In this document: positions 3,352 through 5,995 of the stretch, in pieces
Layout: each line of letters begins with the position of its first letter
Numbering within the stretch: the stretch's first letter is position 1
DNA from: an uncultured Monoglobus sp.
Lineage (GTDB): Bacteria; Bacillota; Clostridia; Monoglobales; Monoglobaceae
DNA length: 64,000 nt
Reading direction: 5' to 3'
Assembly (NCBI GenBank): GCA_947630135.1
Contig: CANRGH010000001.1
Location: forward strand, 186,001-250,000
Made by a program: the position numbers and the translations under genes
The notes under the pieces: generated by a model
What the model saw: the letters and a program-made list of their open reading frames with translations, nothing else
The model's database searches: none
What the model was told of the DNA's origin: nothing

Positions 3352-3531
3352 ATGACCAAACGTGAACTTGAACGTATTTTAAAAAAGGCTGGTTGGCAAA
3401 TTATCAGCGGCGCTAACCACGACATGGCGGTAAAACTCGGAACAAGCACAAAAATTCCGATTCCGAGACATAAAGGTGATATTCCCGTCGGAACGGCCAA
3501 TAATATTTTAAAGGACGCAGGTTTAAAATAA
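3352..3531 (+). CDS. hicA: HicA-like mRNA interferase toxin
   Basis: 59 residues, with ATG at 3352 behind a GGGGTGGG ribosome site and TAA at 3529-3531. The sequence begins MTKRELERILKKAGW and continues with ISGANHDMAV and IPIPRHKGDIPVGT, the layout of HicA (double-stranded-RNA-binding fold, one catalytic His, here in GANHD). HicA toxins cleave mRNA on stressed ribosomes and are neutralised by HicB. The gene is preceded by its own promoter and followed 15 bp later by a HicB gene, so the pair is complete. Confidence 0.9.
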   Translation: MTKRELERILKKAGWQIISGANHDMAVKLGTSTKIPIPRHKGDIPVGTANNILKDAGLK

Positions 3532-3546
3532 TTTTGAGGTGATTTT

Positions 3547-3933
3547 ATGAAATACGTATATCCTGTTATATTCACTCAAGAGGATAACAAATATTTGGTT
3601 TCGGTGCCCGACCTGTCGGGCTGCCACACATTCGGCGACGATTTGTCGGACGCGATCGAAATGGCACGTGACGCAATGGCAATGTGGCTCTGTATAGCTG
3701 AGGACAACAAAGAAAAGATCCCGACGCCTTCGATCAATCTGAAGTCGGACAGCGGAATAGTCAGCCTTATAGACATAGACACGGAAGCTTACAGAAAAAA
3801 GACAGACAGCCGCGCCGTGAAAAAGACGCTGTCTCTGCCAAGCTGGCTTAACACAAGGGCGGAGCTTGAAGGCATCAATTTTTCCGCGGTTTTGCAGGAA
3901 GCGCTAAAAGATAGACTCTCGCACCGCGCTTGA
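3547..3933 (+). CDS. hicB: HicB-like antitoxin
   Basis: 128 residues. The N-terminal half (YPVIF..., VSVPDLSGCHTFGD, AIEMARDAMAMWL) is the partially degraded RNase H fold of HicB that covers the toxin. The C-terminal part, from about residue 85 (KKTLSLPSWLNTRAE onward), is a ribbon-helix-helix DNA-binding segment. A TGAGGTGA ribosome site precedes the ATG. It lies 15 bp behind hicA and is followed by a strong terminator. The C-terminal segment is the likely ligand of the palindrome in the hicAB promoter. Confidence 0.93.
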   Translation: MKYVYPVIFTQEDNKYLVSVPDLSGCHTFGDDLSDAIEMARDAMAMWLCIAEDNKEKIPTPSINLKSDSGIVSLIDIDTEAYRKKTDSRAVKKTLSLPSWLNTRAELEGINFSAVLQEALKDRLSHRA

Positions 3934-3953
3934 AAACAACAAAATTTGATTTA

Positions 3954-3990
3954 AACAGAGGTACGGCCGTACCTCTGTTTTGTTATATTT
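3954..3990 (+). terminator. hicAB terminator
   Basis: A 26-nt perfect palindrome (3954-3979; 11-bp stem with a GGCC loop) is followed by TTGTTATATTTTT. Confidence 0.85.
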
Positions 3991-4002: not shown

Positions 4003-4031
4003 TTGACCTTTTTGGAATATTATGATATACT
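4003..4031 (+). promoter_or_regulatory. Promoter of the structured RNA
   Basis: TTGACC (4003-4008) and TATACT (4026-4031) have a 17-bp spacer, placing the start site near 4038, exactly where the long hairpin begins. Confidence 0.75.
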
Positions 4032-4036
4032 GATTG

Positions 4037-4241
4037 TGCCACATATCTGAATATATAACAATGAAAGCTGTTTTTTTCATGCATAGTTTTATTTACGCTG
4101 TAATAAGCTAAAAATGTCGGCTTTGACAAGCGTAAATAAAACAGTATGTGTGTTATTGTTGTATTTGTTTCGGATGTGTGGCAGCATTGAAGTCTTAGCC
4201 GCGTTTTTATGTGCAGCTCAGACTCGGGCTGCACATTTTTT
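4037..4241 (+). ncRNA. Candidate non-coding RNA: long rod-like hairpin plus terminator (6S-like architecture)
   Basis: No convincing gene lies here, but the transcript predicted from the promoter at 4003-4031 folds into one long rod. Positions 4037-4051 pair with 4169-4183 (15 bp including G-U), 4053-4062 with 4155-4164, and 4078-4098 with 4130-4152, leaving an asymmetric internal loop at 4063-4077 and a small apical stem. A short tail leads to a terminator at 4209-4241. Length (about 200 nt), pairing of the ends at the start site and the internal bubble recall 6S RNA, which sequesters sigma-A RNA polymerase. I do not recognise conserved 6S positions. A leader or riboswitch controlling the gene at 4331 is the main alternative. 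Confidence 0.5.
4209..4241 (+). terminator. Terminator of the structured RNA
   Basis: ATGTGCAGC (4209-4217) pairs with GCTGCACAT (4228-4236) and is followed by six T (4236-4241), a textbook intrinsic terminator about 90 nt before the next gene. Confidence 0.85.
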
Positions 4242-4330
4242 ATTTGAAATTTTTGTCGGAAAGGCGGGGAGAGAACATGACGCTCGGATAAAAGTGTCGG
4301 CCGTATTATAAAATATCGGAGGGTTATAAA

Positions 4331-5023
4331 ATGAAACCAATAATAAAAGAAAGATTAAAAGGCGCGGTCTCCGGCCTCATTATCGGAGCCTTGGTCGTAA
4401 GCGGCGGAGTGTTCGCGAAGCAGAAAATTGAAACGATCGAAGTAGAGTACAACAATATCAAAGTTTACAAGGACAATGTTTTATGTGAATTAAAAGACGC
4501 GAACGGCAGCACAATCGAGCCGTTTATCTACAACGGAACGACATATATGCCCGTAAGAGGCACGGCAAATCTCGCCGATATGCAGGTAACATGGGACGGA
4601 GCGACCCAAAGCGTGTATTTATGGGACGAAATGGTTCCGGGCGGAACCCCGTTTTTGGAAGCCTGCCCGCCGTATGATGAAAGTAATTGCTACACATATT
4701 TAGCAAGCGAAGGTCAAAGCTTTGAGATGTCGGGAGAAAAATACAGTAACGGTTTCGCATTCAGGGACTTTTGGGGTGGCAAAAATGGAAATGCATTATT
4801 TAATCTTAACGGCAAATATTCAACCATAGAATGTACAATAGGTCATGCCGTTGGTCAAAATAGTAAATCTGTATCATTTATCGTTGACGGAAGGACGGTA
4901 AAAGAGGTAGAGCTCGAAGATGAAGCTTTGCCCAAAACAGTTTCTATCCCTATAAATTACGGCTTGCAGTTGAAAATCGTGGGTGACGGAGGAATCGGCA
5001 TCGGCAACATGATGGTGCAATAA
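4331..5023 (+). CDS. Exported protein with copper-amine-oxidase-like stalk and NPCBM-like domain
   Basis: 230 residues. A signal-peptide-like N-terminus (basic start, hydrophobic core to about residue 30) is followed by a segment resembling the 'copper amine oxidase N-terminal' stalk repeat (IEPFIYNGTTYMPVRGTA, about 62-98). Residues 120-230 resemble an NPCBM-type carbohydrate-binding domain (SFEMSGEKYSNGF..., VSFIVDGRTVKEV). Such proteins are extracellular in Firmicutes and usually of unproven function. A GGAGGG ribosome site lies 7 nt before ATG. No clear promoter is seen between the terminator at 4241 and the start, so readthrough from the RNA promoter is possible. Base composition is AT-rich for this window. 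Confidence 0.7.
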   Translation: MKPIIKERLKGAVSGLIIGALVVSGGVFAKQKIETIEVEYNNIKVYKDNVLCELKDANGSTIEPFIYNGTTYMPVRGTANLADMQVTWDGATQSVYLWDEMVPGGTPFLEACPPYDESNCYTYLASEGQSFEMSGEKYSNGFAFRDFWGGKNGNALFNLNGKYSTIECTIGHAVGQNSKSVSFIVDGRTVKEVELEDEALPKTVSIPINYGLQLKIVGDGGIGIGNMMVQ

Positions 5024-5067: not shown

Positions 5068-5397
5068 ATGAAAAAGAAAATTTTAGCAATACTATTAGCA
5101 TTAGTGACAGTGCTGATACTGGCATCATGCGAACAAAAAAACAGTCTTGTCGGAGTATGGGATGTTGTTGATAGTACATCATCCACTTATGATGATTGGG
5201 AATTAGAATTATATGAAGACGGGACTGCTATATATGAATACGGCACAGGCCGATATGTTTCGACAGATAATACTTTGACCCTGCTCAATATGGGTGTAAT
5301 GGGAACAAAAGATGAATTTAGTTATGAACTTAAGGGTGATTATTTAACTCTAATCGATGAAGATGGAGATTTTATAAAACTTGAACGGGTTGAATAA
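5068..5397 (+). CDS. Small lipoprotein, lipocalin-like beta-barrel domain
   Basis: 109 residues. The start MKKKILAILLALVTVLI and the lipobox ending ILASC make it a lipoprotein (Cys21). The mature part has the pattern LVGVWDVVDS, ELELYEDGTAIYEYGTG, YELKGDYLTLID, typical of small lipocalin-like or DUF5640-like secreted Clostridia proteins that use an ITGxW-like strand start. A GGAGAG ribosome site precedes it. The coding sequence is markedly AT-rich, unlike the genes at either end of the window, which suggests transfer. Function is unknown. Confidence 0.65.
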   Translation: MKKKILAILLALVTVLILASCEQKNSLVGVWDVVDSTSSTYDDWELELYEDGTAIYEYGTGRYVSTDNTLTLLNMGVMGTKDEFSYELKGDYLTLIDEDGDFIKLERVE

Positions 5398-5449
5398 TAT
5401 TCAATAAAGTTATAACTGAAACAAGGTATGTCTGTTCAGCAACCTGCAA

Positions 5450-5995
5450 GGTGAGTAGGGGACGGCGCCCTCGACGTCCCGCGGCAGCATGTGGGCATGC
5501 CGCCCTACACCACAAAATGGTTACGCCACCTTTTCTGCCTCTCCCTTGGGGGAGCTGTCAACATAGGGAATAGGAAATAGGCTCTAGAGACTAGGAATAT
5601 CTCATAGAGATTTTCAATTCTAGTTCCTAGTCTCTATTCTTTAGTCCCTAAGTTCCCCTCTCCGTCTTTCCGCCTACGGCGGAAATCCACCTCCCCCCTA
5701 GGGGGAGGCAAAATAAGACCTACCCGCTATGGTGAGCATCTTACAAAAGGCTCCCTTTCATTTATGAGGGGATAATCAGCAAGCTTGCTTGCGGGTTATC
5801 CCCGGGGGAGGCAGTGAAAGAGGCTCCCCTTGGGGGGAGCTGTCTGCGGAGCAGACTGAGAGGGAGTTATTTCCCTACGTCGGTTCGCCTCCCTCTCCGT
5901 CGCCTTCGGCGCCACCTCTCCCTCCTAAAGGCGGGCGAGGCAAATGCCGATCATTTTGTTTCACCTACGCTTTGGTTTGGTCATATTATACCTCG
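5450..5995. repeat. Cluster of palindromic intergenic repeats
   Basis: This gap between the lipoprotein and the SOD-like gene is packed with inverted repeats: GGGACG/CGTCCC (5458-5463, 5475-5480), a CATG-TGGG-CATG hairpin (5483-5509), AGAGACTAGGAA with its exact complement (5586-5597, 5624-5635), TTTCCGCC/GGCGGAAA near 5665-5690, CCTCCCCC/GGGGGAGG near 5692-5708, and GTCTGC/GCAGAC near 5842-5856. Similar GGGGAG...CTGTCTGCGGAGCAGAC blocks are common dispersed intergenic elements in Clostridia. The 5483-5509 hairpin has a relative at 8562-8588. An open frame (5789-6007) runs through it, but it is repeat-derived. Confidence 0.7.

Follow-up and report, generated by a model that had tools for sequence, protein, structure and literature searches.

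Leaders of the c-di-GMP and ydaO types are terminator-type riboswitches that control envelope genes. The RNA that we describe here lies in a window of DNA (the whole analyzed stretch of 64,000 nucleotides, from an uncultured Monoglobus sp.) and, based on sequence comparison, it shares with such riboswitches a 5' leader position, a promoter of its own, terminator and antiterminator hairpins that exclude each other, many copies and a putative regulon of surface proteins. It differs from them in having a long rod of variable length and not a compact junction aptamer, in an apical loop that is predicted to pair with the antiterminator strand and in the lack of an Rfam match. T-box leaders are similar in that a long 5' stem influences the choice between antiterminator and terminator further downstream, but the window RNA has no T-box Rfam match and its targets are surface proteins rather than amino-acid genes. 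In rod shape and size it is like 6S RNA, yet it is multi-copy and gene-linked and is without the central promoter-like bubble. We suggest that the window RNA belongs to a family of multi-copy, cis-acting, riboswitch-like transcription attenuators, a reading to which we give a probability of about 0.7; such a family would most likely control a surface-protein regulon and represent a new class of attenuator. The features of the locus and its surroundings are as follows.

3352-3531, + strand: HicA-like short ORF (identified by eye), directly 5' of the region of the element
3547-3933, + strand: HicB-like antitoxin gene (PF15919), after the HicA-like ORF and directly 5' of the element
4003-4031, + strand: sigma-70-type promoter TTGACC-17-TATACT with a TG before the -10 (extended -10), 10 of 12 matches; from sequence reading and copies elsewhere
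4037-4183, + strand: leader rod of 147 nt; from the fold, partner-specific pairing in 72 copies and compensatory changes
4110-4127, + strand: conserved apical motif AAAAAUGUCGGCUUUGAC, complementary to segment S; from alignments and own-versus-cross pairing
4190-4208, + strand: switch segment S, AAGUCUUAGCCGCGUUUUU; from sequence reading and pairing tests across the family
4191-4224, + strand: antiterminator hairpin, which excludes the terminator; from own-versus-cross pairing (z -11.1)
4209-4241, + strand: intrinsic terminator, a hairpin (4209-4236) and a U tract
4318-4323, + strand: Shine-Dalgarno GGAGGG of the downstream gene; from sequence reading
4331-5023, + strand: gene of a 230-aa exported protein with an N-terminal hydrophobic segment and a Cu_amine_oxidN1 domain (PF07833)
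5068-5397, + strand: 109-aa lipoprotein-like ORF with the signal ...LASC

The promoter, the rod and the terminator had been read from this DNA in an earlier note and all three were recovered in our analysis. The RNA (4037-4241) has a minimum free energy of -77.3 kcal/mol, compared with -46.9 +/- 3.7 kcal/mol for dinucleotide shuffles (z -8.17), and none of 200 shuffles was as stable. In the predicted fold the basal stem P1 pairs 4037-4051 with 4169-4183, in agreement with the note's proposal that the transcript ends pair at the start site, with the 5' end paired from about +1; the G-U pairs that it had listed (4044-4176, 4048-4172 and 4056-4161) are all present in the minimum-energy structure. 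Above P1 there is an A/U-rich hinge followed by the upper helices, and one side of the rod carries a 13-nt bulge (4065-4077). The terminator hairpin has 11 pairs, six of them G-C. In the antiterminator, AGUCU (4191-4195) pairs with AGACU (4220-4224) and the pairing continues inward; when forced, this fold reaches -74.8 kcal/mol, which is 2.5 kcal/mol from the terminator fold. S can also pair with the apical motif (4201-4208 with 4110-4117, 4197-4200 with 4119-4122 and 4192-4194 with 4125-4127) in a predicted duplex of about -19.8 kcal/mol.

Around the element, the HicA/HicB-like pair has its own promoter-like sequence and is separated from the RNA by a strong palindromic terminator (3953-3980). 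Short interspersed repeats of the CTCCCCTTGGGGGAG type are clustered at 5440-5960 of the window, and repeats resembling this type lie between the RNA and the gene at L084 and L094.

When the DNA of 60 relatives was searched, orthologues of the locus appeared in five genomes belonging to the genus, and numerous further stretches of these same genomes matched it in part, some in the promoter and 5' part and some in the terminator part. The earlier note had considered a single locus, which proves to be a member of a large family with dispersed copies. A covariance model (R1), built on 33 copies, identified 26 copies at E < 0.001 in the window's own 2.35-Mb genome, four tandem pairs included. Copies are present in 36 of the 38 genomes of the window's taxonomic family, with up to 35 per genome, and the other 13 genomes of the order gave one weak match. 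In a class sample, 84 of 391 genomes (46 of 222 genera) had matches with E ≤ 1e-9, a lower bound because only six candidates per genome were scored. The sole matching genome in a phylum sample of 299 genomes, some of them from the same class, was the window's own, which shows the specificity of the model. A related motif also occurs in named records; these are metagenome-assembled genomes, either of uncultured Monoglobus or of other Clostridia, and many of them come from animal guts. The closed, single-contig genome G009, which is probably that of the cultured species Monoglobus pectinilyticus, has one copy 5' of the gene of a secreted M23-peptidase-like protein with Ig-like repeats (identified by eye), and a bench test should therefore be feasible. 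At L071 (G006:C27) a MazE/AbrB-like gene is preceded by three consecutive copies of the RNA, all of which have a terminator of their own. The apical-motif pattern had no exact match in viral contigs, none was found on plasmids, and the single match in phages was partial (75% identity), on an unannotated faecal contig.

The family layout from 5' to 3' consists of the promoter, the basal stem (TGCCACAT.../...TGTGGCA), the hinge AAUAU, the rod and the switch region. Such a promoter is found about 5-7 nt 5' of the basal stem in nearly all the copies inspected. The rod arms are highly divergent between copies, yet complementary within each copy. The family apical motif, AAAAAYGYNNGCUYU, is followed by the return arm, GCARCA, S ending in UUUUU and the terminator. 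Hinge and apical motif are conserved across the family consensus, and no compact ligand pocket was recognised in it.

Since a column-wise alignment of the rods is impossible, we used an own-versus-cross test, in which the strand of each copy is paired with its own partner or with partners taken from other copies. The set contained 72 copies with less than 70% identity, in 10 sequence clusters, and 2000 permutations were made (an earlier version had 57 copies). Own partners paired better for the basal stem P1 (z -17.1), the rod helix P2 (z -34.7), the terminator (z -17.6), the antiterminator formed by S and the terminator 5' arm (z -11.1) and the apical motif with S (z -8.3), in each case with 0 of 2000 permutations reaching the observed value. 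With permutation only inside the 10 clusters all five pairings were still beyond every permutation (z -4.3 for the apical motif with S), and three control pairings in the 72 copies gave no signal (z between -0.7 and 0.2). These results support the five predicted helices. For the apical motif with S the alignment-free test replaced column counts because S differs by a few nucleotides between two subclasses. In the P1 and terminator columns, from an alignment fitted to a model that already holds this structure and is biased toward it, 97.5% of the cells are paired and both-side changes occur at 15 of 17 pairs (97.4% and 8 of 9 for the terminator helix alone); there are 227 cells with both-side changes compared with 45.8 after shuffling, and shifting the partner abolishes the signal. 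In the orthologues of the window locus from five genus relatives 366 of 375 pair cells are kept, with four compensatory double changes: 4095-4133 (A-U to G-C), 4096-4132 (C-G to U-A), 4099-4129 (U-A to A-U) and 4219-4226 (C-G to U-A). The covariation that the earlier note had proposed to look for is present both at the locus and family-wide. Sequence comparison establishes the predicted helices, the mutual exclusivity of their pairings, the family and its linkage to downstream genes, and the mutually exclusive terminator and antiterminator with covariation is a property expected of an attenuator leader.

Another such property is a same-strand position 5' of a gene. A same-strand ORF with a Shine-Dalgarno sequence starts within 60 nt of the terminator in 46 of 90 copies, compared with 1 of 92 on the divergent side, and signal-peptide-like N-termini are found in 41 of 61 ORFs within 120 nt, compared with 0 of 6 on the divergent side. 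Among the 26 copies in the window's own genome, the distance from the end of the RNA to a start codon is 13-89 nt in 17 and 254-353 nt in three, four are the upstream partner in a tandem pair and two (L093 and L097) are without a clear target; copies with no evident downstream gene (these two, L119, L122 and L123) are mainly outside the window's genus. In many copies the terminator abuts the Shine-Dalgarno sequence directly and leaves no space for a second promoter, so the description of the RNA as free-standing in the earlier note is probably wrong, as many copies run directly into the gene. The orphan copy L097 (G000:C4:122009-122183) is convergent with a gene resembling a ribosome-hibernation factor; it may be an RNA in its own right or act as an antisense regulator.

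At the window locus the exported-protein gene (4331-5023) is the probable target, and the lipoprotein-like ORF is possibly a second gene on the same transcript, its operon membership being inferred. In G004 and G010 a deletion took the promoter, most of the RNA (the 3' half) and both downstream genes, and left a remnant. In several genera that are distant from the window's, genes of exported proteins resembling the Cu_amine_oxidN1 type likewise stand 3' of the RNA (L165, L171 and L183, by eye). A Pfam scan of representative targets found LRR_5, SLH, RCC1, Cu_amine_oxidN1 and MazE/MraZ-like domains; the targets are mostly secreted proteins (BspA-type LRR, SLH, Cu_amine_oxidN1) or MazE/AbrB-like zinc-ribbon proteins. 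The leader recurs 5' of genes for proteins of about 80 aa whose N-terminus is of the MazE/MraZ/AbrB type and whose C-terminus resembles a CxxC zinc ribbon (L079, L098 and L100, and in relatives L042, L049, L067 and L071). These proteins could be co-regulated regulators, or could even act on the RNA. Outside the window's family, a small acidic protein (MNIK(V/L)ELLK.YISDF...) with no Pfam match is encoded 3' of the RNA at L166, L173 and L177.

How could such a leader work? S can pair with the apical loop or with the terminator 5' arm, never with both, and for the 5' arm the possible partners are S and the terminator 3' arm; when S is on the loop, the terminator 5' arm is free for termination. 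In the attenuation model, polymerase would start just 5' of the basal stem and transcribe the rod and then S. With S bound to the apical motif, the terminator would fold and an RNA of ~205 nt would be released (OFF). With that motif already bound or masked, S would pair with the terminator 5' arm, forming the antiterminator, and the gene would be transcribed (ON). The effector may be a metabolite, a protein or an RNA that acts on the apical or hinge region, and a single signal might set the whole regulon of surface proteins and small MazE/AbrB-like zinc-ribbon proteins. We infer that termination is regulated, as well as the direction of the switch and the site of the effector. As for the geometry, S begins 0-8 nt 3' of P1 and the rods are 29-64 bp long. 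A rigid fold-back, with P1 and P2 of equal length, is unsupported (Spearman 0.11, p 0.34), and the rod and linker lengths have a weak to moderate correlation (Spearman 0.49 and 0.26 in two analyses). With S near P1, long rods and unmatched P1 and P2 lengths, the pairing of loop and S needs a bend, a partly open rod or two molecules; the hinge and the bulges were considered as bend sites.

A pairing between two molecules is the core of a rather unlikely option, in which the terminated rods of ~200 nt are trans-acting small RNAs that pair with the S or apical segments of other copies, the leaders cross-regulate and read-through is incidental. A straight rod could not reach S in cis, 34% of the within-genome cross pairs come to no more than 2 kcal/mol from the energy of the own pairing of apical motif and S, nearly all copies have their own promoter and terminator, and certain copies have no target gene or stand in tandem with separate promoters. 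However, the very strong cis linkage with same-strand gene starts, the co-divergence of apical motif and S within each copy and the terminators that abut the Shine-Dalgarno sequence all fit a leader acting on its own gene better. A dual role as cis attenuator and trans RNA, with cross-talk between leaders, may also exist.

It is less probable still that the leader is passive, with a stable 5' rod that protects the mRNA and a leaky terminator that fixes a constant low expression. The long stem at the 5' terminus and the nearly equal energies of the terminator and antiterminator folds would suit this explanation, but three mutually exclusive pairings, kept in many families, would then be purposeless. 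A mobile or repeat element (MITE-like, REP-like or attC-like single-stranded DNA) is very improbable: the copies are dispersed, numerous, palindrome-like and located beside fast-evolving accessory genes, but their orientation is consistently toward gene starts and not random, they share low sequence identity, and they have a conserved spacing of promoter and P1, a U-tract terminator and arm-specific compensatory changes.

A divergent 6S RNA, suggested by the long rod, the paired 5' end, the own promoter and terminator and the length of ~200 nt, can be practically discarded, as the family has 26 copies in this genome with cis linkage to genes, the 6S covariance model (RF00013) has no match over the element, the predicted fold has a one-sided bulge in continuous helices and not a large central bubble, and the true 6S RNA lies on another contig (G000:C35:7213-7406, 78.7 bits), so that the window RNA is not a missing 6S. 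The earlier note had left three options open, and with 6S rejected the other two are both supported and coincide: the new RNA class is at the same time the proposed terminator-bearing leader of the gene at 4331.

Rfam, to which the earlier note had pointed, did not identify the element: no Rfam 15 family reached its gathering score over it, and permissive thresholds gave only weak, unrelated scores at chance level. Two skipping-rope RNAs (RF02924) were found in the same genome, G000:C9:65275-65354 (60 bits) and G000:C39:11551-11650 (46.5 bits); these are the only matches of that family above the cut-off and both are away from the element, so that skipping-rope, which had been considered as a candidate identity, is rejected. 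No description of the family was found in the open literature searched, and the main text of PMC8040213, PMC11109978 and PMC8632094 had no keyword match, although an unnamed listing in their supplements is possible. We consider the RNA a candidate new attenuator class that belongs to no tested family, its novelty meaning that neither Rfam 15 nor the open literature searched contains it.

To our knowledge, few RNA switch classes have tens of copies per genome. On balance, and with less assurance than for attenuation as such, we lean toward a previously undescribed, class-wide set of RNA switches of gut Clostridia, with at most ~35 per genome, in which the rod loop and the terminator compete for one strand, possibly between molecules too, and one signal or a network of leaders coordinates the surface proteome. 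If these leaders sense a signal, their expression platform would be an unusual one, with the antiterminator strand captured by a distal loop, and as an orphan riboswitch candidate they would supply hundreds of natural variants with which to search for the ligand. The RNA family would then define a large regulon of surface proteins in gut Clostridia, a poorly studied group.
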